Source of the DNA: Pontibacillus chungwhensis
GTDB taxonomy: Bacteria; Bacillota; Bacilli; Bacillales; BH030062
DNA: 64,000 nucleotides
Assembly (NCBI RefSeq): GCF_030166655.1
Contig: NZ_CP126446.1
Coordinates: 1,178,001 to 1,242,000 of the forward strand
Direction: 5' to 3'
Translations under genes and position numbers: made by a program
The notes under the pieces: generated by a model
Told to the model about the DNA's origin: nothing
Database searches by the model: none
What the model saw: the letters and a program-made list of their open reading frames with translations, nothing else
Shown: positions 4,710 through 24,950 of the stretch, piece after piece
How positions within the stretch are numbered: position 1 is the first letter of the stretch
How the letters are laid out: the number at the start of each line of letters is the position of its first letter

Positions 4710-4828
4710 ACGATCACTCCTTTAGCTAGTATTCCATACCCGAACTCTGACTTGATTATACACGCTTATAGGTCGTTGGTCTCGGATAGAGAAGGGTCTT
4801 TATGAACTTGAAAAAGAGAACACGTGTT

Positions 4829-4858
4829 GGGTGAACATTTTTTTGCTCACCCTTTTTT
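4829..4858 (+). terminator. Terminator-like hairpin in a divergent intergenic region
   Basis: GGGTGA and TCACCC pair around a T-rich loop, followed by a run of T. It sits between divergently read genes (4203-4709 minus, 4897-5490 plus), so it ends no obvious transcript. It could act as a leader attenuator of the next gene or be a stray repeat. A related hairpin is at 7118-7145. Confidence 0.5.
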
Positions 4859-4896
4859 ATATGATGAGGGTACCAAAGAAACAGGAGGAATGAATC

Positions 4897-5490
4897 ATGA
4901 AGAAATTATTCTCAGGATGTTTAACCATTATTGGAGCCATTGTGGTGATTGGCATTATTATTGCCGTAGCCACAGGAGGGGACGACTCGGCGGAAACGTC
5001 TTCAGGAAATGAAAGCAGCGGTCAAGAATCAAGCAAAGCAAAAGAAGAAACGAAAGAAGAACAAACGGAAACGATCGGAATCGGTGAGACAGCAACGATC
5101 GACGACATTGGGTTTACGGTCAATAACGCAGAAAGCAAAACAACGATCGAGCCAGACAACGAGTACGCAGAACCAGTAACGACAAACAACCAGTTCATCG
5201 TATTAGATGTAACGATTAACAACGGCAAGAGCGAAGCGATCACAACGGACTCAAACTTCTTCACCCTTGTCAGTGAAGACGGCACAGAATACAGCCCGAA
5301 AAATGATGGGGACCTGATCACGGTCATCCCGAACGACAAAATGCTGTTCCTAGAAGAGATCAACCCAGGTCTTAAGAAAAACGGAATCATCGTCTTTGAA
5401 GTCGGCTCAGATGTAGACATGAGTGGCCTGACGTTAAAAGCCAATGCTGGATTCTGGGGCACGAAGAGCGTAAACATTAACTTGAAATAA
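4897..5490 (+). CDS. Membrane-anchored DUF4352-type extracellular protein
   Basis: This 197-aa protein has one N-terminal transmembrane helix (about residues 9-28), a Ser/Glu/Lys-rich linker (about 32-62) and a C-terminal beta-sandwich domain of the DUF4352 kind: 'IGETATIDDIGFTVNNAE', 'NNQFIVLDVTINNGKSEAI', 'EINPGLKKNGIIVFEV'. Such domains sit outside the membrane and have an immunoglobulin-like fold with no known enzymatic role. The cysteine at residue 8 is too close to the N-terminus for a normal lipobox. The start is an ATG behind CAGGAGGAATGAATC. Confidence 0.8.
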   Translation: MKKLFSGCLTIIGAIVVIGIIIAVATGGDDSAETSSGNESSGQESSKAKEETKEEQTETIGIGETATIDDIGFTVNNAESKTTIEPDNEYAEPVTTNNQFIVLDVTINNGKSEAITTDSNFFTLVSEDGTEYSPKNDGDLITVIPNDKMLFLEEINPGLKKNGIIVFEVGSDVDMSGLTLKANAGFWGTKSVNINLK

Positions 5491-5503
5491 GCACAAAATG
5501 AAA

Positions 5504-5535
5504 AAGCCCGTTCCCAAATTATACGGGAGCGGGCT
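5504..5535. terminator. Bidirectional terminator
   Basis: AAGCCCGTTCCC and GGGAGCGGGCTT form a long GC-rich stem, with A-rich sequence before and T-rich sequence after. It separates the convergent genes ending at 5490 (plus) and 5551 (minus). Confidence 0.85.
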
Positions 5536-5550
5536 TCCTTTATGTATGAC

Positions 5551-5838
5551 TCATGATGCTTTCTTTAGCCGGAATGAGTATAACCAGAACACATACACCA
5601 CCACACCCATTAAAGATCCACCAACAGCGAGAACGCCGCCCCAGTGAACGGGAGATCCGGTCAGTCGCCAGAAGCTGTAGGGAACCAAGTATAGAAACAC
5701 GAAAACGAGCAGCCCTAAACAAAGGATCATCGCATTCTTGACTGGACTTTGCTTCACCTCTGTCTGAACCATGACCATCCCATTCAGGACGATCGAAAGC
5801 CCAACAAGAGACAAGATCAGCATCCATCCGCTTGCCAT
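5551..5838 (-). CDS. Small three-span membrane protein
   Basis: This 95-aa hydrophobic protein has three likely membrane spans (about residues 5-24, 34-54 and 65-86) and a short basic tail (SFRLKKAS). The ATG is preceded by CAGGGGGTATAAAC. I do not recognise the family. It is a single gene, convergent with the DUF4352 gene and divergent from the defence island. Confidence 0.65.
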   Translation of the reverse strand: MASGWMLILSLVGLSIVLNGMVMVQTEVKQSPVKNAMILCLGLLVFVFLYLVPYSFWRLTGSPVHWGGVLAVGGSLMGVVVYVFWLYSFRLKKAS

Positions 5839-5928
5839 TGTTTATACCCCCTGGAAAACCATTGTCGTCATGGCTAAAATGAATAGCCTTTATAGAAAAA
5901 AAGCGATTCAAGGTTTTTATAAATGAAA

Positions 5929-6115: not shown

Positions 6116-7105
6116 TTGGAAGTAAACAACAACACTAGATTATTACAGCTACAGGAGATCTTGTCCAAAGAAACAGATGAATTACACGAATTAAGTATGA
6201 AAGAAATTATGGAGAAACTGAAATTCGTCTTCGGTCCTGAGGCGAACTTCGATAAACGAACGCTTAAGCGGGACATGGAAGTTCTAGAAGAAGCGGGATT
6301 CGAAGTGATCCAGAACAAAGGCGACTTCGGAAAAACGCTCTACAGCTATCAGGACCGCGTGTTTGAAACGTATCAGCTCCGCCTGTTAAACGACGCTGTC
6401 CTATCAGCGAAGTTCATTACAGAGAAGGAGAAGAAGGATCTGATCCAGCGCATTAAGAACCTGACGAGTAAACATATCGCAAAGACATTACCGGATCCCT
6501 TGCTGTTCAATCAATCCGCAAACGATGGCTACCAGCTTGTGAAACTGAACATCGATCACGTACATACGGCCATCGCTGAACAGAAGGTCCTTTTATACCA
6601 ATACGGCAAATACAATATGAAGAAAGAGTTCGAATACAACCGCGACGGAAGCACCTACGAGGTCGAGCCCTACGCCCTGATCTGGCAAAACGATTTCTAC
6701 TATTTAATCGGCCGATTCCGAGGCACTGGAGAAATGCGCCACTACCGCCTCGACCGCATGCGGAACATCCGTTTGTCAGAAGAACGATTCCGCAAAGAAG
6801 AGATCAACATCCAAGACTACGTGGACCAAAGCTTCCACATGTTCGCAGGAGAGAACACCTGGATCAAAGTCCAGTTCCACGCCTCTCTCCTAAACGTCGT
6901 CCTCGACCGGTTCGGCCTCGACGCCTCGATTCAGCAAGTGGATGAGGAGCATTTCTTGCTGTCAACGAAGGCCAAGATGAGTACAGGGCTAGTCGCCTGG
7001 ATTATGCAGTGGGGGCGGAAGGCTAAGGTCGTTTCGCCTGAAGCGTTGAAGGAAGAGGTTCGGGAGGAAGTCCGGGCTATGTTTGAGGGGTATGGATTGG
7101 AGTAG
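6116..7105 (+). CDS. WYL-domain transcriptional regulator at the head of the defence island
   Basis: This 329-aa regulator starts at TTG 6116 behind GAGGAGGTCT. The N-terminal winged helix (about residues 1-75, with 'FDKRTLKRDMEVLEEAGFEV') would bind DNA. The central WYL domain (about 135-225) has 'VEPYALIWQNDFYYLIGRF' and 'RHYRLDRMRNIRL', the usual WYL fingerprint with YYL in place of WYL. A WCX-like C-terminal part (about 245-329) completes it. WYL proteins such as BrxR and CapW repress phage-defence operons and respond to nucleic-acid signals. It lies 192 bp before the four-gene operon, in the same direction, so it probably controls it. Confidence 0.85.
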   Translation: MEVNNNTRLLQLQEILSKETDELHELSMKEIMEKLKFVFGPEANFDKRTLKRDMEVLEEAGFEVIQNKGDFGKTLYSYQDRVFETYQLRLLNDAVLSAKFITEKEKKDLIQRIKNLTSKHIAKTLPDPLLFNQSANDGYQLVKLNIDHVHTAIAEQKVLLYQYGKYNMKKEFEYNRDGSTYEVEPYALIWQNDFYYLIGRFRGTGEMRHYRLDRMRNIRLSEERFRKEEINIQDYVDQSFHMFAGENTWIKVQFHASLLNVVLDRFGLDASIQQVDEEHFLLSTKAKMSTGLVAWIMQWGRKAKVVSPEALKEEVREEVRAMFEGYGLE

Positions 7106-7117
7106 GGAACCTTTGTT

Positions 7118-7145
7118 GGGTGCGCAAATTATTGAGCACCCTTTA
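7118..7145 (+). terminator. Terminator-like hairpin after the WYL gene
   Basis: GGGTGC and GCACCC pair around a 12-base loop, followed by TTTATAAT. It lies 13 bp after the WYL stop, which suggests that the regulator and the downstream operon have separate transcripts. Confidence 0.55.
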
Positions 7146-7196
7146 TAATATAATTATGCTAGAATCATTGAATAAAAGTTGGTTTTATAGGATCAT

Positions 7197-7264
7197 ATTA
7201 CCAATAAATATCTAAGGCTCTCTTCTCTTAAAGATGGTATCTTATGATAAAATTTACTGGTAAT
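7197..7264 (+). promoter_or_regulatory. Inverted repeat flanking the likely promoter of the four-gene operon
   Basis: ATTACCAATAAAT (7197-7209) and ATTTACTGGTAAT (7252-7264) are reverse complements at 12 of 13 positions, 42 bp apart. An AT-rich -10-like stretch (TTATGATAAAAT, about 7242-7253) lies at the inner edge of the right arm. This is the geometry expected for a repressor that loops or covers a promoter, and the nearby WYL protein is the natural candidate. The repeat is visible; binding is inferred. Confidence 0.5.
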
Positions 7265-7296
7265 CTACTTACAATTATTTAAAAGGAGTACATGTA

Positions 7297-10200
7297 ATGA
7301 CAACGGAATCTTTATTCTCATTCATGAAAGAAGTCGCTCCTGATTTTGTTACGTTAGGAGAAAAGATTGAGGCTTCTTTGTTTGAACAGCCAAATAGTAC
7401 TTTGGTTCAGGCTCGTTTGTTTGGTGAACATTTAGGAAAACTAGTGGCCAAACACGAAGGCACTGAAGAAGTCTTTTCAGTAAAGCATGTGGAACGTTTA
7501 GAGAAACTATTGCGCAGAGAAGCGATAGAAGAAGATATATTTAATAAATTTAATTGGCTACGAAAGATGGGGAATAAAGCAGCTCATGAGCCTAACTTTG
7601 GAGAAGTAGAAGTGGCAATCAGAGCGCATCGTATCATTTATGACCTTTCTTGTTGGTATGTTCAATTATACATAAGTTTTGACTTTGCCGTACCAGAATA
7701 CAGCCTTCCCAAGCCCAGAGCCAATCAAGGGGTTGATAAGGAAGAGTTAGCTAACATGTTACAACCCTTATTAAACGACTCTCTCCAATCGGTTGTAGGC
7801 CAGCAGTGGGCAGAAATGAAAAAAGAAATAGAAGAATTGAAGAAATTGAAGGAAGAGCCACCGAAAACTGATAATGAGAACGATGGTGAAAAAGTCCCTC
7901 AACCTAAAGTAAAAGAAGAAACTAAGAGTGAGGTTAAAGAGAAATCTTTTGCTTTATTCTCATACCTTAAAGAGCATGGTTTAGAAGTGCTTGATAAGCG
8001 AGCGAATAAAGGAGCTATTTGGGTAGTTGGGAATTGGTCTTTGAAAGAGATTCTATTCCCTTTAAAGAAATACAACATTTATTTCCGGTTCGCGAAGAAA
8101 GGCTCTAAGTCTACTAAACGTCGCCCGGCCTGGTTTATGCTAAGTAAATGGCGCGAGACAGAAGAGGAAGAGAAGGCTCGCTTATTTAAAAGTGAAGAAA
8201 AAGTTGAAGAAAGTAAGGTAGATGAGATATCTAGTAATAGCAGTAAAGAGGATGAGACCAAGGAATCTTATCAGCTGCCTGAAACAGAGGAAACCTATTC
8301 AGAGCAAGCTGAGTATGTAGTTAAAGAGGATCAAACATTTATTGTGCAATTAGCACCTGTAAACAAAGTAGACTACACCCAAAAAGAACAATTGTTTGTT
8401 CCAAATCATCTTTTGAACACTCCAATTGAAAGCTATGCTGAAACAGCTCTATCTTTGCTTAAAGATAAAGGAATTCAATTTGTAGCAGATGTAGATGAGG
8501 ATATTCTGAGGGATTTATACCGCACTGATCGGGAGTTCTTTTATCAAGTGGTTCAACATTTGTTTGTTCTTGGTGTAGATTTCACAGAGAAGTTATCACA
8601 ATTTAAGCCTGTAGTTCATTTTGAAGGTGAAGACAAAGTCATCGTTGTTCGTAGTCAGGAACATTCAGCAATATCCTCTTGGTTACCTAAACTTTACACG
8701 CAACGATTTGCAGAAGTAGGAATTCGAAATACGAATCAACTCAACGGATTATTTCTATCCTCTTTAAAGTGGTTATTTAAGGAATTATATGGTGAAGTGT
8801 TGACTTTTCTTTCTCAACATGAAGAAACATGGGTAGAAGAAGGGGAAGAACCCTTTGAAACGCATGTTCCAGCAGAAAACGCAGGAAGCATTTCCTTAGA
8901 CAATGAATGGATATCAATAGATGCTAACCTAAGAGAAGTTGCACTAAACACCACAAACTTTCAAGGAGTGCGTGCTTTAGTTCGTCAATTACAAGAAAAA
9001 GGCTTCTTTACATTGAATGATTTACCAGAAAATCTGGACGACCTTCACCTTCAATTCAAAGGAGTAGGCCCTGGTGCCGTGCAAAAATTATGGAATCAAA
9101 TTGCCCTTATGTCGAAGAGTATAAACACTAAAGGTGAGAATGGTAGTCAATTTGAGCAGGGTACTATGGTAGTATTTGAAGATTATGAAATTGAAATCCC
9201 TGAGATCATAAGAACCGTAGACATTGAAACAGATCGATTCTTAGGGGTAAAGTCGATATTGGAACAGTTCGGTGAGAGAGGCATAAGGGTTTATGGTGAC
9301 CTGCCGGTAGATTTAGAGTCTATTACTTCTTGGCCCAAAATAGGGAAAACGAGAGTGAAACAGTTCTTTGAACAGCTTGTAGACATCATGGAGACGGTTA
9401 AGAACGAGTTGATGTATTCACAGAAGTTGAATCAAATGACAGCTGAAGAACGTTTTCATTATTACTTTACTAAACATGAAGAGCTAGTAAGTAAACTTCC
9501 TGATTCAGTTGAGTTGCAAAAGAAGCATAAGATCACCCCACGCCAATTAAAGCTAATGGAAATGAAATATAAAGCTTTTAAAAGAGGGGATCACCTTACT
9601 CTAGAAGAGATGGGTGAAGCATTAGGTGTAACGAGGGAAAGGGTTCGTCAGGTTATTGCTAAGTTCAATGAACGTTTATTCCTCCAGGGAGAAAAATGGG
9701 TCAACGAAGTTCAGCAGATGTTGAAACATTCTCAAGTAATAGCGAATAAATGGCTCGATCGCAAAACATTTACCCATTATATGATGGGAGAATGTTTAAA
9801 CATGCTTAATATAAACTTTAGACTAGAAGACTTGTATCTAACTTCATACAACAGTGAAGAGTATGAGAATGTTAAGAAATCTATATATGAGAATGTAAAA
9901 GATTTCTTCCACCAAAAGGTGTTTACAAGATTAGAGCTTGAAGATTGGGCAGAAGCTTTATCCCACAAATTAAACATTCCTAGCGCTTTTATTAAAGATG
10001 TAAGCTCTCCTTATATGAATTGGTTTCAGAATGGGGAAGGTGTCTTAACTACCCTAAATAAGGCCGACGTAGTAGAGATGGTTATGGCGGAGTATCCACA
10101 GGGTGTAGAAATCTTTCGAAAAGAAGATGAACTGATAGAGAAGGCTAATCAAATTATGCCAGGTCAGTTTGGCGGTGAACGTTCTTTCACAAGTATCGTC

Positions 10201-11586
10201 AGTAATAGGGAAGACGCTGCTCACAAGTTCCTAATGTGGGGAAGAGGGACGTATATTTATCATCAGTTTGTGCACCCGGATATCGACTGGTTAGCTCAAG
10301 TACAATATCAGGCTCTTGATTTCTTATCAAAAGTGTCAACGGTCAATATTCATAAGTTATTCAGAGTTGTAAAAGAAGAGGCCATCGAGAGAGGAATCCC
10401 AAACGAGTATGCGCTTTATACTTTATTAAGGCAGCATCCCATTGAAGAAGTAGATTATTTGAAATTTCCGAAGATTTCATTAGCTGGAGTAGAACTAAGG
10501 AAGAACGTAGAATGGATACGTGAATTTATCCATGAATATGGTGAGCCAGTGCCTTATGATGTACTAAGAAATGAGTTTGTTCATGAAAGAGGATGGAAGG
10601 AGTTCACTTTACAACACAATCTATGGAATGATGATTCTATCATCCAGTACAAACATGCCCATTATACGTTAATGTCGTATTTTGAACATATTCCATATGA
10701 TTTCTTCCGTCCTATTATTCAACGACTAGAAGAGCTGCTGGAAGACCAAACGATTATTCAAATTGGTCGAGTGTTCGAAGAGAAGAAAACGTATTTAGCT
10801 AGTGAGGGCATAGTGAGTTCTTATCTCCTTTATCAAACCTTAGAACGATTATATGAGGGACCGTTGGATTTTGCCAGGTATCCATATCTGACTAATGGCG
10901 ACATCAATAAAGATGACCTTTCTATAACGTCTCTTGTAGAAGACTATTTGATAGAAGCTGGTGGAGAAGTACCAAGAGAAGAAGTGTATCAGTGGATTAC
11001 AGAAGAACTCGGAGGTCACGAGAAAATATTAGATAACGTACTACAGAAATCAAACGATATCTTCTACTACACTAGAGGACAATATGGGGAGTATGTTCAT
11101 CGAGACGTGATTGATTGGAACGAAGAGAAACAAGAACAGTTGCATCAGTACTGCCTGGCTCGTTTGAATGAATTACTGGGAGTCAGAGACCTTCCTATAA
11201 TAACGATCGGAGATTTATTTAATCCTAATGATCTCCCTCCATTAGACAATTATGTCCCATGGACAGAGGATTTGCTAACGGATTGCTTAAAGAATGACCA
11301 TCGATGGGAGCTTATTGGCTCTTACAACTGGATTGTAGCAGCATTTGAGACAGTGATGCCTTATAGTAGTAATCCTGAATTTATAACATATATCTTAACG
11401 TCTCAATTTAACTCCAGTGCGAAAGTCCACGACTTTTATCGTTACTTAAGGCAAGTTAAATATTCACAGGATGGAGCACTATTGAGCGAAGCGGAAGACC
11501 TCTTGGAAGAGGATGAAGCACCTTTTACAATCGAAGGTGATGAAATCGTAATGAAATTGTTAAAGGAGACTACTCATGAATCATGA
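7297..11586 (+). CDS. 1429-aa HEPN/DUF4145-like, HhH and sigma-70 region-4-like defence protein
   Basis: Large soluble protein of mixed architecture. Residues about 1-140 resemble the DUF4145/HEPN-like module of HsdR-type proteins ('NWLRKMGNKAAHEP'). A charged linker follows, then a small domain at about 220-290. Two helix-hairpin-helix segments like the RNA polymerase alpha C-terminal domain lie at about 553-600 ('FKGVGPGAVQKLW') and 648-700 ('WPKIGKTRVKQFF'). A sigma-70 region-4 helix-turn-helix sits at about 765-793 ('LEEMGEALGVTRERVRQVI'). The last 600 residues look like repeated winged-helix units ('EPVPYDVLRNEF', 'GEVPREEVYQWI'). It lacks sigma region 2, so it is no normal sigma factor. 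It may sense or hijack transcription at foreign DNA; that is inference. The gene overlaps the next by 11 bp. Confidence 0.7.
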   Translation: MTTESLFSFMKEVAPDFVTLGEKIEASLFEQPNSTLVQARLFGEHLGKLVAKHEGTEEVFSVKHVERLEKLLRREAIEEDIFNKFNWLRKMGNKAAHEPNFGEVEVAIRAHRIIYDLSCWYVQLYISFDFAVPEYSLPKPRANQGVDKEELANMLQPLLNDSLQSVVGQQWAEMKKEIEELKKLKEEPPKTDNENDGEKVPQPKVKEETKSEVKEKSFALFSYLKEHGLEVLDKRANKGAIWVVGNWSLKEILFPLKKYNIYFRFAKKGSKSTKRRPAWFMLSKWRETEEEEKARLFKSEEKVEESKVDEISSNSSKEDETKESYQLPETEETYSEQAEYVVKEDQTFIVQLAPVNKVDYTQKEQLFVPNHLLNTPIESYAETALSLLKDKGIQFVADVDEDILRDLYRTDREFFYQVVQHLFVLGVDFTEKLSQFKPVVHFEGEDKVIVVRSQEHSAISSWLPKLYTQRFAEVGIRNTNQLNGLFLSSLKWLFKELYGEVLTFLSQHEETWVEEGEEPFETHVPAENAGSISLDNEWISIDANLREVALNTTNFQGVRALVRQLQEKGFFTLNDLPENLDDLHLQFKGVGPGAVQKLWNQIALMSKSINTKGENGSQFEQGTMVVFEDYEIEIPEIIRTVDIETDRFLGVKSILEQFGERGIRVYGDLPVDLESITSWPKIGKTRVKQFFEQLVDIMETVKNELMYSQKLNQMTAEERFHYYFTKHEELVSKLPDSVELQKKHKITPRQLKLMEMKYKAFKRGDHLTLEEMGEALGVTRERVRQVIAKFNERLFLQGEKWVNEVQQMLKHSQVIANKWLDRKTFTHYMMGECLNMLNINFRLEDLYLTSYNSEEYENVKKSIYENVKDFFHQKVFTRLELEDWAEALSHKLNIPSAFIKDVSSPYMNWFQNGEGVLTTLNKADVVEMVMAEYPQGVEIFRKEDELIEKANQIMPGQFGGERSFTSIVSNREDAAHKFLMWGRGTYIYHQFVHPDIDWLAQVQYQALDFLSKVSTVNIHKLFRVVKEEAIERGIPNEYALYTLLRQHPIEEVDYLKFPKISLAGVELRKNVEWIREFIHEYGEPVPYDVLRNEFVHERGWKEFTLQHNLWNDDSIIQYKHAHYTLMSYFEHIPYDFFRPIIQRLEELLEDQTIIQIGRVFEEKKTYLASEGIVSSYLLYQTLERLYEGPLDFARYPYLTNGDINKDDLSITSLVEDYLIEAGGEVPREEVYQWITEELGGHEKILDNVLQKSNDIFYYTRGQYGEYVHRDVIDWNEEKQEQLHQYCLARLNELLGVRDLPIITIGDLFNPNDLPPLDNYVPWTEDLLTDCLKNDHRWELIGSYNWIVAAFETVMPYSSNPEFITYILTSQFNSSAKVHDFYRYLRQVKYSQDGALLSEAEDLLEEDEAPFTIEGDEIVMKLLKETTHES

Positions 11587-11761
11587 ACATGATTTAATAC
11601 AGAAGATGAAAGAACTTGTCGACGAGGAAGATCCCCTCGTCAGACAAGTGGTATCCCTCACATTGGATGAAGTAAACAATCGGTCATTATCGGTCGAAGC
11701 AACAGCCAAAAGAATGGAACGTAAAATCGATGGAATGTTGCAACAGGACGGGAGGGGCTAA
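11576..11761 (+). CDS. 61-aa small protein in the defence operon
   Basis: Small acidic-basic helical protein ('HDLIQKMKELVDEEDPLVRQ', 'VEATAKRMERKIDGML') with no membrane span. Its ATG lies 11 bp inside the end of the 1429-aa gene, and its stop is 2 bp before the ATPase gene, which implies translational coupling. I recognise no family. The size and position suggest a bridging or regulatory subunit that joins the large protein to the ATPase. Confidence 0.65.
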   Translation: MNHEHDLIQKMKELVDEEDPLVRQVVSLTLDEVNNRSLSVEATAKRMERKIDGMLQQDGRG

Positions 11762-11763
11762 CT

Positions 11764-13776
11764 ATGATTATTTCTAAATTAACGATGAATCATTTTCGCC
11801 AATTCTATGGAGACCAAACCATTGACTTTGCTGTTGATGAGCACCAAATGGTTACCGTTATCCTTGGGGAAAATGGCCGGGGAAAAACGGGAATTTATAG
11901 AGCCCTGTTATTTGCCTTATTTGGGGATCGTTTCTTAGAACAGGATGCAAAAGGTGATGGGCTGCTCTTAGCCAATAGCAAAGCTCTAAAAGAAGACCAG
12001 GAGAGAGAGAATAAAGGGATTGAAACATGTGTAGAAATTCACTTTTCTCACCAGGGAAACTCTTACATTTTACATAGAAGTCAAATTGCTCGCATCGAAA
12101 CAAATGGGAAGGTAAAAGAAGAAGATCACGATCTATGGTTAAAAAATGTAGAAGACAATGAAACCCTTACGAGAAAAGCAGACATAAACGAACTTGTCTA
12201 CTCCATTCTAGATGACAGAGTGAAACATTACTTCTTCTTTGATGGAGAACGTATTGAAAGGTTAACCAGAACAAATCAGGATCAAAAAAATGAGATCTCT
12301 ATGGGAATTAGGAACTTATTAAAGATTGATCAAGCTGTTAAATCGAAACAAGTTCTCCAGCACCTTTTAAAGAAAACAAATAAGGAATTGCAAAATCATT
12401 CCACAGGGGAATATCGTCAAGCTCTTCAAAAAAGAGAAGATCTACAGAAACAAAGGGAAGAGTACAAAGCAGAGAAAGAAAACATAGAAAATACCCTTTC
12501 AAATGACGCTCATCGATATCAAGAAATTGAAGATGAGCTAGAACGATTTGAGAAAGAGAAAGAACTCATACAACAGAGGAGACAACTTGAATCAGACCTT
12601 GATTATGCTAAGGAACAGGTAGGACATTCTCAGCACGCACTGACTTCTTTCAGTGATACGCTGTCTCTTCTTATGTCTAGAGATATTCTATTTGATGTGA
12701 AGAAACAATTAGACCTCTATCTTGGTGAGAAACGTCAAGAAGACGTGATGAGTTCAAAAGGAATACAGGAATTACTGGAGGACTTGACTTGCATATGTGG
12801 TCGTGATTTTGTTGAAGAATCTACTGAATATCAGCAACTCCAGTCTCTTTATCATGCTGTTCAGAACCAGGAAGCTAACAAGGATTACCATCAATTAAAA
12901 GCGAAGGTTATGCAATTAATTGGTTTTTTAGATGGTAAAGAAGAAGATTTAAAGAATCAGGTAGAAACCATAAAAAATGCTGAACAAAGTGTGGACGACC
13001 TTTCTTATCAGGTAGAAAAACTTAATCAACAATTAAGTGGTACGGGTGAAGAACAACTTCAATCTCTCAATGAAGAGAGAGAAGATCTCCTTAGAAAACA
13101 GACTCACCAAAGACATGAGATGGACCAGGTCAAAGAAAAACTAGACGGGATCGAAAGTGAAATCCAGAAAGTTAACCTCCAAATTAAAGACTTAAAAGTG
13201 AAAAGCGGAGCTCACCAGCAGCTAGTGAAGAAAGAAGAAACTCTATCAGCCTCTCTTGAAGCTATGAAGAGAATCATTAGTAAGTTCGAGAAGGATGTTA
13301 TGGAGGATTTAGAAATTGCTGCTACTCAAAATTTAAGCTATTTATTGGATGAAAGTGGACAAGAAAACTTAAAAGAAGTGAAAGTTCGTTCCGATTATTC
13401 ACTTGATGTGCTAAATGCCTTCAATCAGCCGTTCCTTGCGAACATTTCACAAGGACAACGACAAGTTCTTTCATTAAGCTTTATTACAGCATTAGCTCAA
13501 GTAGCGGGTGGATCGAACACTTTAGAAATGCCTTTATTTATGGATACACCATTTGGTCGCCTGTCATCTACCCACCAGGAGAACCTAATGAGCTTCATTC
13601 CACAGATCACGTCACAGTGGGTCTTACTCGTGACAGATCGCGAATACGATCAGAATGCTCAGAACAAATTTGAACAAATGGGGGTAGTTGGGAAGTACTA
13701 CATTCTAGAGAGTACTGAGCCAGGCGTCACACAAGTTAAAGAGCAGCTTTACACGCAAGGAGGGTACTCATCATGA
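11764..13776 (+). CDS. DndD-like SMC/ABC-type ATPase
   Basis: This 670-aa ATPase has the RecF/DndD/SMC layout. The N-terminal half has the Walker A motif 'GENGRGKTG' (about residues 34-43) and 'YFFFDGERIERL' (about 156-167). A long coiled coil (about 200-530) is broken near its middle by CICG (C343, C345), which looks like half of a zinc hook. The C-terminal half has the ABC signature 'SQGQRQVLSLS' (about 562-572) and a Walker B 'MPLFMDTPFGRLS' (about 589-601), typical of the DndD group. Such ATPases couple DNA binding to a partner effector. The dndA, dndB and dndC genes are absent, so this is not phosphorothioate modification. Confidence 0.85.
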   Translation: MIISKLTMNHFRQFYGDQTIDFAVDEHQMVTVILGENGRGKTGIYRALLFALFGDRFLEQDAKGDGLLLANSKALKEDQERENKGIETCVEIHFSHQGNSYILHRSQIARIETNGKVKEEDHDLWLKNVEDNETLTRKADINELVYSILDDRVKHYFFFDGERIERLTRTNQDQKNEISMGIRNLLKIDQAVKSKQVLQHLLKKTNKELQNHSTGEYRQALQKREDLQKQREEYKAEKENIENTLSNDAHRYQEIEDELERFEKEKELIQQRRQLESDLDYAKEQVGHSQHALTSFSDTLSLLMSRDILFDVKKQLDLYLGEKRQEDVMSSKGIQELLEDLTCICGRDFVEESTEYQQLQSLYHAVQNQEANKDYHQLKAKVMQLIGFLDGKEEDLKNQVETIKNAEQSVDDLSYQVEKLNQQLSGTGEEQLQSLNEEREDLLRKQTHQRHEMDQVKEKLDGIESEIQKVNLQIKDLKVKSGAHQQLVKKEETLSASLEAMKRIISKFEKDVMEDLEIAATQNLSYLLDESGQENLKEVKVRSDYSLDVLNAFNQPFLANISQGQRQVLSLSFITALAQVAGGSNTLEMPLFMDTPFGRLSSTHQENLMSFIPQITSQWVLLVTDREYDQNAQNKFEQMGVVGKYYILESTEPGVTQVKEQLYTQGGYSS

Positions 13777-14219
13777 TAGGAGAAATTGGTTCACTAAGAG
13801 TACGCGTACGTCCAGAGTACTTGCCGTTATATAAACAACTTCTAAGAAACAGTTTAATTAAACAACATAGTGAGTTCTTCACACTTTGCTGCTTTATGAC
13901 TAATTCAAAAGGTCAACTAGATGAACAAGTTAACCTCACAGAACTGTGCCAGGCGAATTCGTTTACAGAGTATCAACTTACTTCTCTATCTGCACTAGCT
14001 TATAAACATAACCAGGAGTTACTATTTTATAAAGAACTCTTTCAACAAATGGAGCAAGAAGCGGATAAAGGGTTCACTTATCTTATAGAAAACGTCTGGA
14101 GTAACCTTGTTTCTTATAGTGAAGGTGGAGAGGTAACCATTATCCCAGGGAGGGAATTTGAGGCTCAGTATTTGTTGGCAGCTCATGTTAGTCGTGAGAT
14201 GGAGGAAGTGCCGTTTTAA
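13773..14219 (+). CDS. 148-aa partner protein of the DndD-like ATPase
   Basis: The start codon overlaps the ATPase stop (ATGA), so the two are translationally coupled. The protein is soluble and mostly helical: 'VRPEYLPLYKQLLRNSLIKQHSEFFTLCCFMTNSKGQ', 'TELCQANSFTEYQLTSLSALAYKHN', then a short C-terminal beta part ('GGEVTIIPGREFEAQYLLAAHV'). Its position matches dndE in Dnd loci and the small middle component of ABC-three-component systems. I see no clear sequence match to DndE and do not recognise the family. Confidence 0.6.
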   Translation: MIGEIGSLRVRVRPEYLPLYKQLLRNSLIKQHSEFFTLCCFMTNSKGQLDEQVNLTELCQANSFTEYQLTSLSALAYKHNQELLFYKELFQQMEQEADKGFTYLIENVWSNLVSYSEGGEVTIIPGREFEAQYLLAAHVSREMEEVPF

Positions 14220-14536: not shown

Positions 14537-16594
14537 ATGGAAATGACAAATAACAATGAATATGTTCAGTTTATATGGAAAAATGCCGAGATCCTAAGAG
14601 GGCCTTATCAAAAGGAAGAATACCGTGATGTGATTTTGCCATTGGTAGTGTTACGTCGTTTTGACTCATTATTAGAACCAACTAAGGATCAGGTTCTGGA
14701 AAAAGCTAAAACCGTCAGACACGACGCAATTTTGAATCGGTTGGCAGGATATGACTTTAATAATACAAGTCCATTTACATTCAAAACACTTCTACGGGAT
14801 CCGGATAACATCGCCGCGAATTTACGCAACTATATACAAGGATTCTCTCAAAATGTGCGCGAAATCTTTGAGCATTTTGATTTTGAAGATGAAATTGAAA
14901 AGATGGATCAGTACAACCTACTTTATAATGTCTTAAAGTTGTTCGCGAGCATGGACTTTAGTGTAGAGAAAGTATCCAATATGCAAATGGGATACATTTT
15001 TGAAGAACTTATCCGTCGTTTTTCTGAAAACGCAGAAGCAGGGGACCACTATACCCCACGTGAAGTCATACAGCTTATGACTAATCTCGTATTAAACGAA
15101 GACCAGTCAGAATTGATGGAAGACGGAAAGATTGTACAGATTGGGGACTTTGCTTGTGGTACAGGAGGTATGCTTTCAGAGGCTTCAGAATACATTAAAG
15201 CTTTAAATCCTAGTACACAGGTTGAAGTGTTTGGTCAAGAGTTCAATCCGAAATCGTACGCGATTGCCTGTGCCGACTTATTGATTAAAGGACAAAATGC
15301 AGGTCATATTGCTTTCGGTAACTCTCTTACAGATCAGGATGGTCACCAAGGTCGTGAAGTCCGTTACGCGCTTATGAACCCGCCATTTGGCGTGGACTGG
15401 AAGCATTACAAAGCCCCAATTGAAGAAGAGCACGAGGAAAAAGGATTCGGGGGTCGTTACGGAGCAGGACTACCGCGTACATCTGATGGGTCTCTTTTAT
15501 TTATGCAGCATATGGTGTCTAAAATGAAACAAGACGAAAAGGGAAGTCGTATGGCAATCATCCAGAGTGGTTCTCCCTTGTTTACAGGGGATGCAGGAAG
15601 TGGAGAGAGTGAAGTGCGTCGCTGGTTGTTAGAGAATGACCTTGTTGAGGGGATCATTGCCTTGCCAGACCAGTTGTTTTACAACACAGGTATAAACACG
15701 TATGTCTGGATTCTGTCGAACCGAAAAAACGATGATCTTCAAAAAGGCGCTGTTCGAACGGGTAAGGTTCAGCTCATCGATGCACGGGAATATTACACGA
15801 CAATGAAGAAAAGCCTGGGGCAAAAACGTCATGAACTCACAGGTAAGCACATTCAAGAACTCACACGTCTGTACGGTGAGTTTAAAGAGGGTGAAAACAG
15901 CAAAATCTTTGATAACGAAGACTTTGGTTACCACAAAATCACCGTGGAACAGCCCTTGCAATTGAACTTCCAAATTTCTAATGAGCGAATCGAGGGTTTG
16001 TACGGAGAAGCAGCGTTCTCGAGATTATATGATGAGGAGAAATATCAGGAGTTGTTAGGTAAAGAAAAGAAGACAGCTGCAGACGAGAAAAAAATCACAA
16101 AGTATGAAGAGGGCCAGAAACTTCAAGAGGTGATTGTGAACATCCTGAAAGCGAATCGCTCCGATACTGTTTACAAAAATCGCGAAACGTTCTTAGGTGT
16201 CTTAGAACCCCTATTCAAAGATCATCCAGACGTGAAAGCTGGTTTGTTTAAATCTATTCTAATGGGGTTAGCTGAACGGGACAAAACGGCTGATGTCTGT
16301 AAGGACAAAAAAGGGAACAAGGAACCTGATCCTACGCTTCGGGATACAGAAAACGTACCGATAACAGAAAATATAGAAGACTACTTTAAACGTGAAGTCT
16401 TGCCGCACGTTCCCGATGCTTGGATTGATGATAAGAAAACGAAAATAGGGTATGATATCCCGCTCACTCGCCACTTCTATAACTATGAGTCGCTTCGTCC
16501 GGCAGTGGACATCCAGCACGACATTCAGAGAGAAGAAGAGGAACTACTAGGTTTAATGGAGGGATTATTCGATGAAGCGATACAGCGCGTATAA
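14537..16594 (+). CDS. hsdM: Type I restriction-modification N6-adenine methyltransferase HsdM
   Basis: The modification subunit (685 aa) has an N-terminal helical HsdM_N domain (about residues 5-130) and an N6-adenine methylase domain. SAM-binding motif I is 'FACGTGGML' (about 205-213) and the catalytic motif IV is 'NPPFG' (about 281-285). 'AGDHYTPREVIQLM' before motif I is standard for HsdM. It methylates adenine at the sites chosen by HsdS and forms the M2S and R2M2S complexes. It is the first gene of an hsdM-hsdS-hsdR operon and overlaps hsdS by 23 bp. Confidence 0.95.
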   Translation: MEMTNNNEYVQFIWKNAEILRGPYQKEEYRDVILPLVVLRRFDSLLEPTKDQVLEKAKTVRHDAILNRLAGYDFNNTSPFTFKTLLRDPDNIAANLRNYIQGFSQNVREIFEHFDFEDEIEKMDQYNLLYNVLKLFASMDFSVEKVSNMQMGYIFEELIRRFSENAEAGDHYTPREVIQLMTNLVLNEDQSELMEDGKIVQIGDFACGTGGMLSEASEYIKALNPSTQVEVFGQEFNPKSYAIACADLLIKGQNAGHIAFGNSLTDQDGHQGREVRYALMNPPFGVDWKHYKAPIEEEHEEKGFGGRYGAGLPRTSDGSLLFMQHMVSKMKQDEKGSRMAIIQSGSPLFTGDAGSGESEVRRWLLENDLVEGIIALPDQLFYNTGINTYVWILSNRKNDDLQKGAVRTGKVQLIDAREYYTTMKKSLGQKRHELTGKHIQELTRLYGEFKEGENSKIFDNEDFGYHKITVEQPLQLNFQISNERIEGLYGEAAFSRLYDEEKYQELLGKEKKTAADEKKITKYEEGQKLQEVIVNILKANRSDTVYKNRETFLGVLEPLFKDHPDVKAGLFKSILMGLAERDKTADVCKDKKGNKEPDPTLRDTENVPITENIEDYFKREVLPHVPDAWIDDKKTKIGYDIPLTRHFYNYESLRPAVDIQHDIQREEEELLGLMEGLFDEAIQRV

Positions 16595-17888
16595 AGACAG
16601 CGGGATCGAATGGATTGGCGAAATTCCAGAAGACTGGAGTGTGACAGCCTTAAATAAGGTGGCTCAAGTAATAGACCCGGAACCAAGTCATAGAGCTCCT
16701 TCTATGGTGAGTGATGGGGGGATGCCATATGTAGGGATAAGAGACCTAAATAAGGATGGAAGTATTAATGTTGATACTTGTAGAATGATTAGTGAAAGTT
16801 CTATAAAGGCACAAGAAATGAGGTTTACTAAAGAAAAAGGTGATATTGTTTTTTGTAGAGTAGCTACATTAGGCAACCCTGTCATGCTAAATAAATATAG
16901 AATGAGGTTCTCGTTATCGGCTACTCTATGTCTAATAAAAACTGATAGTTCACAAGTAGTTTCTAGGTATATCTATTATTACCTTGACAGCCTTCCGATT
17001 AAGTTACAATCTGATCTATTTTCAACAGGTTCTACAAGAAAGTCTTTAGGTATGGAAACAATACGTAAGTTCAAAGTTCATATGCCTAGTCTAAATGAAC
17101 AATTGACGATAGCCACTTATCTCGACCAACAAACGGCGAAAATCGATGCGGCGATCGAGAAGAAAGAGCGGATCATCGAACAACTGAAAGAATACCGACA
17201 ATCGCTGATAACAGAAACGGTCACCCGCGGGCTAGACCCAGAGACGTCGATGAAAGATAGTGGTATTGAATGGATTGGGGAGATTCCTAAGGGTTGGGAA
17301 GTCAAAAAGTTAAAGCACTTAGTTAAAAGAAGGGCGAAAAATGCGAGTAAAAAGGACGCTGATTTACCTTACATTGGATTAGAGCATATAAAGGGGGGGA
17401 CCGGCGAATTAGTTCGTAATAAAGAGGAGTCCACAGACGAATCAGGTGAAACTTCTATTCTGTTTAAAGAAGGTGACGTATTATTTGGGAAGTTAAGACC
17501 ATATTTAGCGAAAGTTTACAACCCAAAATTATCGGGAAAATGTTCATCAGAATTTTTGGTGCTAGACTCTCATTCCTTATCGAGCACATATCTTCAAAAT
17601 GTGTTATTAAGTAACGATTTTATTCAATTAGTTAATTCTTCCACTTTTGGCGCTAAGATGCCCAGAACAAATTGGGGATTTATAGGTAATGTAAGATTTA
17701 TGGTCCCTTCTTTAGATGAGCAAAAAGCCATCACAGACTTCCTTGACCAAAAAACGTCCCAAATCGATGCCGTAGTCCAAAAAAACGAAGGGATCATCAA
17801 AAAGTTAAGAGAATACCGCCAATCACTCATTTCAGAAGTCGTAACAGGTAAAATGGATGTGCGCGAAGCTGTGGAGGTGGACGTATAA
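16572..17888 (+). CDS. hsdS: Type I restriction-modification specificity subunit HsdS
   Basis: This 438-aa specificity subunit has two target-recognition domains, each opened by nearly the same peptide ('KDSGIEWIGEIP' at about residues 9-20 and 227-238). Each is closed by a conserved helix ('KEYRQSLITETVT' near 208 and 'REYRQSLISEVVTGK' near 418). The two halves would read the two parts of a bipartite DNA site. Both domains are full length. The paired conserved helices are natural recombination points for swapping domains, but no second hsdS or invertase gene is nearby. Confidence 0.95.
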   Translation: MKRYSAYKDSGIEWIGEIPEDWSVTALNKVAQVIDPEPSHRAPSMVSDGGMPYVGIRDLNKDGSINVDTCRMISESSIKAQEMRFTKEKGDIVFCRVATLGNPVMLNKYRMRFSLSATLCLIKTDSSQVVSRYIYYYLDSLPIKLQSDLFSTGSTRKSLGMETIRKFKVHMPSLNEQLTIATYLDQQTAKIDAAIEKKERIIEQLKEYRQSLITETVTRGLDPETSMKDSGIEWIGEIPKGWEVKKLKHLVKRRAKNASKKDADLPYIGLEHIKGGTGELVRNKEESTDESGETSILFKEGDVLFGKLRPYLAKVYNPKLSGKCSSEFLVLDSHSLSSTYLQNVLLSNDFIQLVNSSTFGAKMPRTNWGFIGNVRFMVPSLDEQKAITDFLDQKTSQIDAVVQKNEGIIKKLREYRQSLISEVVTGKMDVREAVEVDV

Positions 17889-20848
17889 TGAATACCCCTG
17901 ACATGCTGAAAGAAAAAGAATTTCAGGCGTTGGTTAAGAATCATCTCATCGGCGAGCATAGCTATTTCGAGGGGACGAATGCGGATTACGATAACCATTA
18001 CGCTATCGATACGACGCAATTGTTCGCCTTTTTAGAGGATACACAACCGAAAGCGATGCGAAAATTAACGGAGATTTATAAAGGACAAACCCGCAAAAAA
18101 ATCCTCTTCCGATTGGACCAGGAGCTGAAGCGTCGCGGTATGATCGATGTCCTCCGAAAAGGGATCAAGGATTATGGAGTCCAGTTGCAGCTCGCTTATT
18201 TCCAGCCCCCAACAACCCTTAACAAAGAGTTGCTGGAGCTTTATAAGAAAAACCGGTTATCAGTCACTGAAGAACTGGTTCATAAAAAAGGAGAGCGTAT
18301 CGATCTTGTGGTCTTCTTAAACGGACTTCCCGTTTTAGCGTTTGAACTGAAAAATGAGTTTACAGGTCAGGACGCTGCCTATGCGAAGGAACAATGGAAA
18401 CAAGATCGAAGCGGACAACATCAGTTGTTCCGTTTCAAAGAGCGAACGATTGCCGTATTTGCAATGGATACAAGTGAAGCATTTATGGCTACAAAATTAG
18501 ACGGGGAGAATACGTATTTCCTTCCGTTCAACAAAGGACAGAATGGCGGAAAAGGCAATCCAATTGTTGAAGGGAAGCACAGCACTCATTACATCTGGGA
18601 GGACCTCCTCGCTCCCGACCAGCTTCTTGAGGTGCTCGATAAATTTGTGTTCCTCTCTGTTGAAGAAGAGGAAGGGGACGATGGGAAAATCCGACGAAAA
18701 GAAAAAGTCATCTTCCCTCGCTATCATCAGCGGGATGCGGTGAAAAGTGTGGTGATGGATGCTAAGGCTAATGGGCCCGGCGCATCCTATCTCATCCAGC
18801 ACAGTGCCGGAAGCGGGAAAACCAATTCGATTTCCTGGTTATCGCACCGATTAGCGACGCTTCACAATAATGAAAATGAAGCTGTTTTTGATGGTACGAT
18901 TGTTGTTACAGACCGTAAAGTCTTGGACAAACAATTGCAAAAAGCCGTCTACCAACTAGAGCATAAAGCAGGTATGGTCGCTAAAATCGAGGAAGACTCC
19001 TCCCAGCTAGCAGACGCGTTAAATAACGAGACGAAAATTATCATTACGACGATTCAAAAGTTCCCGTATATCTTAGATAAACTTGGGACGCTTAAAGATA
19101 AGAACTACGCAATCATCATTGATGAAGCGCACTCCTCAACAAGCGGGAAGAACATGGCTGCGCTCACAACGGGACTGACGCTTGAAGAAGCGGCGGAACT
19201 TGATCAGAACGAGGAAAAAAACACACGAGATACTGAAGATCAGATCGTAGAAGATATCCGGCGCATCGGAAAACAAGAGAATATCAGCTTCTTCGCATTT
19301 ACAGCTACCCCTAAAGGATCGACTTTACGCATGTTTGGAACCGAAGGGGAAGACGGGAAGCCACGGCCGTTTCACCTGTACAGCATGAAGCAAGCGATCG
19401 AAGAAGGCTTCATTATGGATGTATTACAAAACTATATGACGTACAACATGTATTATCGTGTTGCCAAACAAATTCAGGATGACCCTGAGTTTGAAGCTGC
19501 CAAAGCGACGAAAGCTATCTCGCGTTTTGTAAGTCTTCATCCACACAACATTGATCAGAAAACGGAAGTTATCGTAGAGCATTTTCGAAAAGTTTCTAGT
19601 ACGAAAATCGGCGGTCAGGCCAAAGCCATGGTGGTTACTTCATCTCGTCTCCATGCGGTCCGCTATAAGCTTGCCTTTGAAAAGTACATCAAGAAGAAGG
19701 GGTATAAAGATTTAAACACCCTTGTCGCTTTTTCAGGTACCGTAAAAGATGGTGGGGAAGAATATACTGAGCCTGGCATGAACGGGTTCGCTGAAAAGCA
19801 ACTACCACAAAAGTTTGATACAGATGACTATCAAATCCTTCTATTGGCGGAGAAGTATCAAACAGGCTTTGACCAACCGAAATTGCACACTATGTATGTG
19901 GATAAGAAACTCTCTGGGGTTAAGGCCGTTCAAACACTCTCTCGCTTGAATCGAACTTACCCAGGTAAAGAAAATACGTTTGTTCTTGACTTTGTAAACG
20001 ATCCTGAAGGCATAAGGGAAGCGTTTGAACCCTACTATGAAGACACCGTATTAGAAGGGGACCTGGATCCTAATGAACTATATAGCATTCAACAGGAACT
20101 TGAAGCATATATGGTTTTAAAAGAAGAAGAGATTAATGGATTTGTAGACATTCTTTATAAGGATAGCCACACGAAACGAGATCAAGAGCTATCCAATAAT
20201 TACATTGATCAGGCGAAGCGACGATATGAGGGGCTTACTGATGAAGAGAAAAGAGATTTTGTCAGCAAAGCTAAAAAGTTAAACAGTATCTATATGTTAG
20301 TATTGCAAGTCACGCCGTTTGAGGATCCTGATTTGCATAAACTTTGGGTTTACCTCCGTTACCTCTTAAAAAAGATTTCTCTAAAAAAGGGGGATAAGGT
20401 AGAACTCCAGGATAAAGTTGTTCTGGAATACTATTCTCTAAAGAAAAATGAAGAAGCTAATATCTCCTTAGGGGAAGATAATGAAGCTTACACCGTAAAC
20501 CTTGACGTGAGTGGCGGGGGTAAACAAGATGAACCTCCAAAGGATCCACTCACAGCCATATTAGAACGGTTAAATACTAGAAACGGTACGGAGTTTGGAG
20601 AACACGAAAAGTTGAACATTCAGCAGATCGTGGATATTGCAACCGAAGATAAAACGCTCCAAACGCAAGCTCAAAATAACACATTTCAAGATTTTGAACT
20701 CGGATTCAAAAAACGTTTTATGGATTATGTCGTAGAAGGATACGATAAAAATCAGGGATTCTTCGATAAGATTTTGAGTGATGACTTCTTCCAGGAGCAA
20801 ATACAGGAATATATCGGAGAGTACGTTTATGAAAAGTTGACAAAGTAA
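17888..20848 (+). CDS. hsdR: Type I restriction endonuclease subunit HsdR
   Basis: The 986-aa restriction subunit has an N-terminal PD-(D/E)xK nuclease domain with 'LAFELKNEFTGQ' (about residues 150-161). A superfamily-2 translocase follows: Walker A 'HSAGSGKT' (about 304-311), DEAH (about 411-415), 'FTATPKGSTLRMF' and 'YQTGFDQPKL' (about 657-666). A C-terminal helical region should contact HsdM. It translocates and cuts unmethylated DNA with HsdM and HsdS. The ATG overlaps the hsdS stop by one base, so all three subunits are made from one transcript. No disruption is seen. Confidence 0.95.
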   Translation: MNTPDMLKEKEFQALVKNHLIGEHSYFEGTNADYDNHYAIDTTQLFAFLEDTQPKAMRKLTEIYKGQTRKKILFRLDQELKRRGMIDVLRKGIKDYGVQLQLAYFQPPTTLNKELLELYKKNRLSVTEELVHKKGERIDLVVFLNGLPVLAFELKNEFTGQDAAYAKEQWKQDRSGQHQLFRFKERTIAVFAMDTSEAFMATKLDGENTYFLPFNKGQNGGKGNPIVEGKHSTHYIWEDLLAPDQLLEVLDKFVFLSVEEEEGDDGKIRRKEKVIFPRYHQRDAVKSVVMDAKANGPGASYLIQHSAGSGKTNSISWLSHRLATLHNNENEAVFDGTIVVTDRKVLDKQLQKAVYQLEHKAGMVAKIEEDSSQLADALNNETKIIITTIQKFPYILDKLGTLKDKNYAIIIDEAHSSTSGKNMAALTTGLTLEEAAELDQNEEKNTRDTEDQIVEDIRRIGKQENISFFAFTATPKGSTLRMFGTEGEDGKPRPFHLYSMKQAIEEGFIMDVLQNYMTYNMYYRVAKQIQDDPEFEAAKATKAISRFVSLHPHNIDQKTEVIVEHFRKVSSTKIGGQAKAMVVTSSRLHAVRYKLAFEKYIKKKGYKDLNTLVAFSGTVKDGGEEYTEPGMNGFAEKQLPQKFDTDDYQILLLAEKYQTGFDQPKLHTMYVDKKLSGVKAVQTLSRLNRTYPGKENTFVLDFVNDPEGIREAFEPYYEDTVLEGDLDPNELYSIQQELEAYMVLKEEEINGFVDILYKDSHTKRDQELSNNYIDQAKRRYEGLTDEEKRDFVSKAKKLNSIYMLVLQVTPFEDPDLHKLWVYLRYLLKKISLKKGDKVELQDKVVLEYYSLKKNEEANISLGEDNEAYTVNLDVSGGGKQDEPPKDPLTAILERLNTRNGTEFGEHEKLNIQQIVDIATEDKTLQTQAQNNTFQDFELGFKKRFMDYVVEGYDKNQGFFDKILSDDFFQEQIQEYIGEYVYEKLTK

Positions 20849-24626: not shown

Positions 24627-24950
24627 ATGCCTATATATAACAAACTAGTAAGAGACTTAATCCCGCAGGTCATTGAGAAAACGGGAAAATCATTTGACAC
24701 GACCATTCTATCAGAAGAAGAATACCATTCTGAACTTCGAAAGAAATTACAAGAAGAAACAGATGAATACATAAATGCTGAAGACGACCAAAGTGCGGTG
24801 GAAGAACTTGCTGATATGCTAGAACTCATGAATGTTTTAGCTGAACAACATGGTTCCTCTATGGAAGAAGTAGAAAAGGTAAGAAAAGAAAAGGCTGAGA
24901 AGCGTGGATCATTTTACGATAAGGTGTTTTTAATTAGTGTTGAAGACTAG
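24627..24950 (+). CDS. MazG-like nucleotide pyrophosphohydrolase
   Basis: This 107-aa all-alpha NTP pyrophosphatase is of the MazG/phosphoribosyl-ATP-pyrophosphohydrolase-like type. It has the 'YNKLVRDLIPQVIEKTGK' opening and the metal-binding acidic helices 'KLQEETDEYI' and 'EELADMLELMNVLAE' (EExxE...ExxD pattern). A good site (CGAGGTGATTAG) precedes the ATG. It overlaps the next PLD-helicase gene by 14 bp, so the two are co-translated. The pair mirrors the NUDIX/PLD-helicase pair just upstream. Confidence 0.85.
   Translation: MPIYNKLVRDLIPQVIEKTGKSFDTTILSEEEYHSELRKKLQEETDEYINAEDDQSAVEELADMLELMNVLAEQHGSSMEEVEKVRKEKAEKRGSFYDKVFLISVED

Follow-up and report, generated by a model that had tools for sequence, protein, structure and literature searches.

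A PbeA-less variant of the PbeABCD defence system with an unnamed large component in Pontibacillus chungwhensis

A four-gene operon around a CxC-clade ATPase

We analysed a 64,000-nucleotide stretch of DNA from Pontibacillus chungwhensis (contig NZ_CP126446.1, positions 1,178,001 to 1,242,000; hereafter the window), which holds a four-gene operon preceded by a gene for a WYL-domain regulator. The operon is a variant of PbeABCD, a system centred on a CxC ABC ATPase (described by Xiong et al., 2019, PMC6459918, and Rakesh et al., 2024, PMC10853773), and its large component, here called BIG, is unnamed. The genes and the signature motif of the ATPase are as follows.

6116-7105, + strand: WYL-domain regulator (WYL Pfam), TTG start, 329 amino acids (aa)
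7297-11586, + strand: BIG, large protein in the PbeA slot, 1429 aa
11576-11761, + strand: small protein in the PbeB position, 61 aa
11764-13776, + strand: PbeC, CxC-clade ABC ATPase, 670 aa
12790-12798, + strand: CxC motif of PbeC, C343-I-C345
13773-14219, + strand: PbeD, DndE-type double ribbon-helix-helix protein, 148 aa

All five open reading frames (ORFs) lie where an earlier note on this DNA had placed them, and their spacing is as it described: BIG and pbeB overlap by 11 nt, pbeB and pbeC are separated by 2 nt, and pbeC and pbeD overlap by 4 nt. Judged by eye, a purine-rich stretch resembling a ribosome-binding site lies 5' of each of the start codons. The four-gene order was found again in five other genomes, with large proteins 31-46% identical, and this recurrence places the operon beyond chance. 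The BIG gene overlaps or abuts pbeB in five of the six PbeA-less loci, with 6 nt between them in the sixth; the small gene of locus L034 was recovered from the gap at this position.

The 670-aa ATPase matches the PADLOC PbeC profile over its full length with 549 bits. It contains an AAA_23 domain (59.5 bits, Pfam) and has conserved nucleotide-binding motifs, with K41 in Walker A, and in a phylogenetic tree it groups in the PbeC clade, outside the DndD group. Its score against the DndD equivalog model TIGR03185 was 163 bits, below the cut-off of 245.85. Judged from its sequence, the protein is PbeC, an ABC ATPase of the CxC clade. Among solved structures, the PbeC profile found Rad50 alone at E <= 0.001 (4 sequences).

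Profile comparison and predicted fold identify the 148-aa partner as a divergent PbeD with a DndE-type double ribbon-helix-helix. The second gene of the operon, encoding 61 aa, is probably PbeB by position; PbeB is small, evolves fast and is encoded ahead of pbeC, and position and size fit this slot in all six PbeA-less loci. The 61-aa protein had no match to the Sp-DndD profile, and the same was true of the small proteins of three dnd-linked loci. Pfam has models for the middle component and the C-terminal domain of ABC-three-component (ABC-3C) systems; none matched any of the five proteins at E <= 1, which is weak as a sign of absence.

The earlier note had taken the operon for a candidate new defence system. 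Two of its genes proved to be PbeC and PbeD and a third occupies the PbeB position, so that two, and probably three, of the four genes belong to a named system; the largest does not. As the ATPase core is known, we regard the operon as a variant and not as a new kind of system, and as PbeA is absent, we file it as a variant and not as PbeABCD itself.

Domains and predicted fold of BIG

BIG could be divided into the following regions (all + strand).

7369-7599, +: DUF4145-like N-terminal domain, residues 25-101
7933-8151, +: conserved stretch termed 'EH signature', residues ~213-285
8854-9411, +: helix-hairpin-helix (HhH) units, residues ~520-705, alpha-CTD-like by homology to L170
9529-9663, +: sigma-70 region 4, residues 745-789, recognition helix TRERVRQ
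9730-11583, +: winged-helix array in the predicted structure, to residue 1412

BIG could not be assigned to any component of a named system, in line with the earlier note, and the libraries scanned held no model for the BIG family, only models for its domains. The note had also called the protein transcription-like and given it the label HEPN/HhH/sigma-4. The sigma part of this label was borne out by Pfam (29.7 bits, cut-off 24.1). In BIG, region 4 has the recognition helix TRERVRQ, where four RpoD-type sequences from loci of a contig scan have TRERIRQ, and across 15 BIG relatives R780 and Q785 are kept in 15/15, R782 and R784 in 14/15 and E781 in 13/15. In sigma-70 these helix residues read the -35 element. 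The HhH units had no Pfam match in the window BIG itself and are recognised by way of the relative in L170, which matches RNA_pol_A_CTD with 28.1 bits (cut-off 23.8). The HEPN label comes from DUF4145 alone, a domain belonging to the HEPN superfamily; it scored 21.7 bits in BIG, slightly below the cut-off of 23.1, and 24.6 bits in the relative in L036. Residues R89, N93 and H97 are identical in all six PbeA-less BIG proteins.

The head of BIG has further relatives among defence proteins. Residues 4-205 align with the N-terminal part of HsdR-like type I endonucleases (NF008521, 89 bits), a DUF4145-type head is also present in an annotated DptF, and residues 154-265, covering part of the EH stretch, match the C-terminus of ZorC (E 7e-6). 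No nuclease was recognised in BIG, and domain and profile scans detected none of the other sigma regions. Of the 71 solved sequences found with the BIG profile, the 60 listed are sigma factors that match at or around region 4. The predicted structure of the whole protein had a mean confidence (pLDDT) of 78.3 and a predicted template-modelling score (pTM) of 0.42; the long C-terminal region was modelled as winged helices, mostly with pLDDT >75, and the top Foldseek rows include UFL1 and SelB entries.

Parts of BIG also occur elsewhere. A 1930-aa protein in genome G129, related to the 1447-aa SF1 helicase of the window, carries the HhH and region 4 part of BIG and matches a BIG profile without region 4 at E 1e-29. 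Because this helicase relative also holds that part, the HhH-region 4 module looks portable among defence proteins. Proteins of ~370-540 aa that are common in the order (e.g. in L011, L013, L015 and L032) combine the DUF4145 head with HhH units only, and are a possible source of the BIG head. Separately, a 759-aa protein adjoining the dnd cassette of G076 (L182, 8866-11145), probably a DptF, has a BIG-like DUF4145-type start, 34% identical to the BIG of L036.

Distribution and relation to known systems

We surveyed 299 genomes of the order and 398 genomes of the phylum (Bacillota). At E <= 1e-60 the PbeC profile found 17 and 9 genomes, respectively, 24 of them distinct, and the loci fell into three types. 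Type I (9/24) is PbeABCD without BIG, and eight of these nine loci adjoin dnd genes; L177 has no pbeB ORF of at least 45 aa, and PbeD of L180 is assigned by position only. Type II (9/24; L038, L163, L164 and L166-L171) begins with a BIG-related protein, BIG', of 958-1320 aa (519 aa in one shortened case), and continues with PbeA-PbeB-PbeC-PbeD; no pbeD ORF was found in L167. Type III, the window's kind (6/24), is BIG-PbeB-PbeC-PbeD without PbeA. Full-length BIG relatives occur in 6/299 order genomes, the window's included, and the gene order is the same in all six loci, each of them beside known defence genes. Identity to the window BIG is 46% for L004/L033 and 31-33% for the other relatives of the order.

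BIG' and BIG are homologous over hundreds of residues by blastp (e.g. BIG' of L163 against BIG of L034, 891 columns, E 6e-68), the L168 group being connected through intermediates; those BIG' proteins that were scanned showed no DUF4145 head. Type I stretches gave no match to BIG profiles stripped of region 4. Type II and III proteins do match these profiles, mostly by construction, as they are profile members; the shortened L169 protein, which lies outside the profile, matches at E 3e-118. PbeA, a PLD/HKD nuclease fused to an SF2 helicase, was found in each of the 18 genomes of types I and II (E <= 1e-140; in G076 and G006 the match at the pbe locus covers the helicase part only), and a profile search of the genomes found none in the six type III genomes, the window's included. 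In a tree rooted between PbeC and DndD, types II and III form one clade (100/100), and type III is a single clade nested among the BIG-bearing PbeC (100/100). The sample can be explained by a single loss of PbeA together with a single change in BIG, either its gain or, should BIG' be the older state, its loss from type I.

As the earlier note had stated for dndC, no DndC sulfurtransferase was found, here in the whole genome of the window. DndC scored above its cut-off in 8/9 type I genomes versus 0/15 BIG genomes; in the remaining type I genome, a PAPS-reductase ORF close to pbeC gives a 41-bit DndC match. PbeABCD works with a DNA modification such as phosphorothioation; the type I methylase adjoining the window operon has its own HsdR. 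Since the tree makes the absence of dnd genes from BIG loci one event, it is not independent evidence. A rule by which BIG replaces dnd modification was considered and rejected, given this single event and two alphaproteobacterial plasmids that carry both.

These plasmids came from 34 plasmid records with a PbeC/DndD match, of which 13 regions were examined. In L188 (Ruegeria sp. THAF33) and L193 (Pontibrevibacter nitratireducens), dndD, dndE and a cysteine desulfurase gene are followed by a sigma-like gene, PbeA, a small gene, the ATPase and PbeD; NCBI annotates the sigma-like product as 'sigma factor-like helix-turn-helix DNA-binding protein'. In two L. plantarum plasmids (Bacillota), PbeA is preceded by a BIG'-like gene or fragment, and no dnd gene is listed in the stretch. 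An unannotated Arthrobacter plasmid encodes a sigma-like ORF of 732 aa ahead of PbeA and a DndD nearby. The other eight regions showed no sigma-like gene in their annotation, which is incomplete. Homology to BIG with region 4 removed was found for L188 (E 2e-5), L187 (7e-5) and a fragment in L192 (1.1e-11), and not for L191 or L193 (850 ORFs searched). The link of the sigma-type protein to PbeA thus probably extends beyond Bacillota, and the protein can coexist with dnd genes. In the Lactiplantibacillus plasmid L187 (3126-4007), three tandem ORFs, 309 bp apart, lie immediately upstream of the BIG'-like gene and repeat the first 87 residues of its product with 98% identity.

Searches by other routes were less informative. 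A contig scan with the large protein as query returned seven stretches and no relative. One with the C-terminal alignment of BIG gave 118 candidates, and in the best 80 of them the match was confined to region 4 and its surroundings; these 80 look like sigma factors. In the phylum, the C-terminal alignment matched at least 381/398 genomes, sigma factors swamping the result, and long non-sigma matches alone were followed. A BIG'-type gene also lies in L165 (3624-6788), with no PbeC in the stretch examined or, at E 1e-60, in the genome.

The window operon resembles PbeABCD in the order small protein, CxC ABC ATPase, DndE-type protein, in an ATPase of the PbeC clade, and in the sizes of the small proteins (61 and 148 aa, compared with a reported 66 and 152 aa for PbeB and PbeD). 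It differs in having BIG in place of PbeA, in a genome where no DndC was found, and in a PbeD beyond the reach of TIGR04062. With BIG'-PbeABCD it shares PbeB, PbeC and PbeD and a BIG-family protein, which is assigned by profile in L188 and from the annotation alone in L193, whereas those loci keep PbeA, their scanned BIG' proteins have no DUF4145 head, and the two alphaproteobacterial plasmid loci also bear dnd genes. DndABCDE likewise pairs an ABC ATPase, of the sister clade, with a partner of DndE fold, but DndD has no CxC, and DndC is absent from the window genome. MzaA of MZA likewise combines large size with a sigma-70 region 4; its match to BIG is, however, confined to that region (57 residues, E 2e-5), and BIG scores 23.4 bits against the NCBI MzaA model, with a cut-off of 800. 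ZorC, HsdR and DptF share DUF4145 and EH-like stretches with the head of BIG only, and the operon holds no Zorya motor or helicase.

Proposed mode of action and genomic setting

We propose, with a probability of about 70%, that the operon acts as a PbeA-less variant of PbeABCD in which a BIG-directed complex arrests invading DNA without cutting it itself. Together, PbeC and PbeD would make up a Rad50-like clamp able to scan DNA or load onto it; scanning by an ABC ATPase-DndE pair is proposed by Rakesh et al. BIG would be the large platform directing the clamp to its site of action, with promoter-like DNA, read by the sigma region 4 helix and the alpha-CTD-like units, as the presumed target. 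In the BIG'-PbeABCD form this choice of target would feed the PbeA nuclease-helicase. In the window form, where PbeA is gone and BIG has a DUF4145-EH head, replication or expression of the invader would be stopped with no cutting by the complex. Following a proposal of Rakesh et al., PbeB may hold the complex in check. According to Xiong et al. (PMC6459918), PbeABCD with dnd genes blocks the replication of an archaeal virus with no visible DNA breakage, PbeB and PbeD are each essential, and low resistance remains when PbeA is absent; a natural PbeA-less form fits this residual resistance.

Some points count on the other side. Against the assignment of PbeD, the NCBI PbeD model TIGR04062 reaches neither the window protein nor that of L033, and Foldseek alone ranks DndE low for the 148-aa protein. 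Against arrest in a PbeA-less form, PbeABCD of Xiong et al. (PMC6459918) depends on dnd, and Rakesh et al. argue for cleavage, since PbeA carries a nuclease. A bolder and quite speculative version would make BIG a promoter-reading immune sensor that mimics the RNA polymerase holoenzyme: region 4 would read the -35 element, the alpha-CTD-like units would mark a promoter-rich or densely transcribed invader, and BIG would thereby license a PbeC-PbeD freeze that needs neither a nuclease nor a self-marking DNA modification.

Cutting might instead be delegated. That BIG-PbeBCD finds the invader and recruits, via its DUF4145-EH head, a nuclease of the island (encoded at 21623-24511 or 24937-27378, or HsdR) seems rather unlikely to us. 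The BIG head is common to HsdR-type and DptF proteins, and PLD-SF2 helicases other than PbeA occur in 6/15 BIG loci (window, L036, L037, L163, L164 and L168) versus 0/9 BIG-less ones, a count that is merely suggestive as the stretches are uneven in length; L170 has short fragments of such a helicase. Yet the best matches to the PbeA model in G198 and G078 (E 8e-11 and 3e-9) cover helicase parts only, and PADLOC classes the protein encoded at 21623-24511 as type IV (1018 bits), a stand-alone kind of enzyme. We are more doubtful still that BIG itself is the killing effector, a HEPN-like RNase acting through DUF4145 and released by PbeC/PbeD on invader DNA in abortive infection. Membership of DUF4145 in the HEPN superfamily and the invariant R89, N93 and H97 speak for an RNase, but the spacing in BIG is R-x7-H and the HEPN RNase motif is R-x4-6-H, and the DUF4145-type domain that heads HsdR- and DptF-like proteins is a non-catalytic part there.

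The sigma region 4 and alpha-CTD-like units would also suit a transcription regulator of the operon or island that stands outside the machine. This is very unlikely, as no other sigma regions were detected, more than 1000 BIG residues lie outside the sigma part, and the gene occupies the place of PbeA and overlaps or abuts pbeB in 5/6 loci. Least probable of all is that the operon serves genome maintenance and takes no part in defence: Rad50 is the only solved relative of the PbeC profile at E <= 0.001, but the distribution is patchy (full-length BIG in 6/299 order genomes), all six loci adjoin restriction-modification (RM), Zorya, McrB-like, GmrSD or type IV genes, and in a sister species the same flank bears a dnd-pbe cassette.

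The action of PbeABCD is disputed, Xiong et al. reporting no viral DNA cleavage and Rakesh et al. favouring cleavage by the PbeA nuclease. Because the window operon is a natural form that keeps the ATPase core and drops PbeA, it opens this dispute to a direct test. A fifth gene, as yet without a name, is also suggested by the survey; it encodes a sigma/alpha-CTD-type DNA-binding protein before PbeA, in Bacillota and probably in Alphaproteobacteria. If BIG does read promoter-like DNA, this would be a new way of target choice for a defence system. No mention of a BIG-family protein was found in the searched parts of the literature (including PMC10853773, PMC6459918 and PMC12707154); the 2020 ABC ATPase survey of Krishnan et al., the first on CxC systems, may mention it.

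Downstream of the operon lies a separate defence system, so that the defence-island context claimed in the earlier note, a DndD-like ATPase operon upstream of a type I RM locus, was borne out.

14537-20848, + strand: type I RM locus (HsdM 14537-16594, HsdS 16572-17888, HsdR 17888-20848)

This locus, of the usual HsdM-HsdS-HsdR kind, begins 317 nt past pbeD; HsdR, with 199 bits, stays below the family cut-off of 284.55. All six type III loci adjoin known defence genes: type I RM, type IV and other PLD-helicases and an SF1 helicase-nuclease in the window, ZorA- and ZorB-like genes in L033, HsdM/HsdS and endonuclease V in L034, McrB-like and GmrSD genes in L035, GmrSD and a PLD-helicase in L036, and ZorA (811 bits) and a PLD-helicase in L037.

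The note's description of the system as WYL-regulated found no support. The WYL domain is clear (45.9 bits, cut-off 21.8, Pfam), but the gene (84% identity) recurs with the left flank of the window (4813-5850, 75%) in two congeneric species, G076 and G213, ahead of a dnd-PbeABCD cassette in G076, a sister species, and of other genes in G213. Counting that of the window, 4/8 genomes of the genus carry it, and a WYL gene was detected directly upstream of BIG in only two of the six PbeA-less loci, the window and L034 (by blastp, with Pfam run on some of the upstream ORFs). The gene in the window probably belongs to a defence insertion hotspot, as a resident, and not to the core of the system; the regulator may still control the genes behind it. 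A 107-aa ORF (24627-24950 in the window, 15255-15578 in L181, ~81% nucleotide identity) directly follows WYL in G076 and lies 17.5 kb further on in the window, and because of this displacement the operon and the RM locus look inserted between WYL and this ORF.

Further along the window, two PLD-SF2 helicases (21623-24511, a type IV restriction enzyme by PADLOC, and 24937-27378) have similar genes near several BIG loci. The 1447-aa SF1 helicase (29896-34239; compare L051, 4053-9845) has an MTES_1575 nuclease domain and matches PADLOC PDC-S37 with 242 bits. Near the left edge lies an IS1595-type transposase (883-1923).

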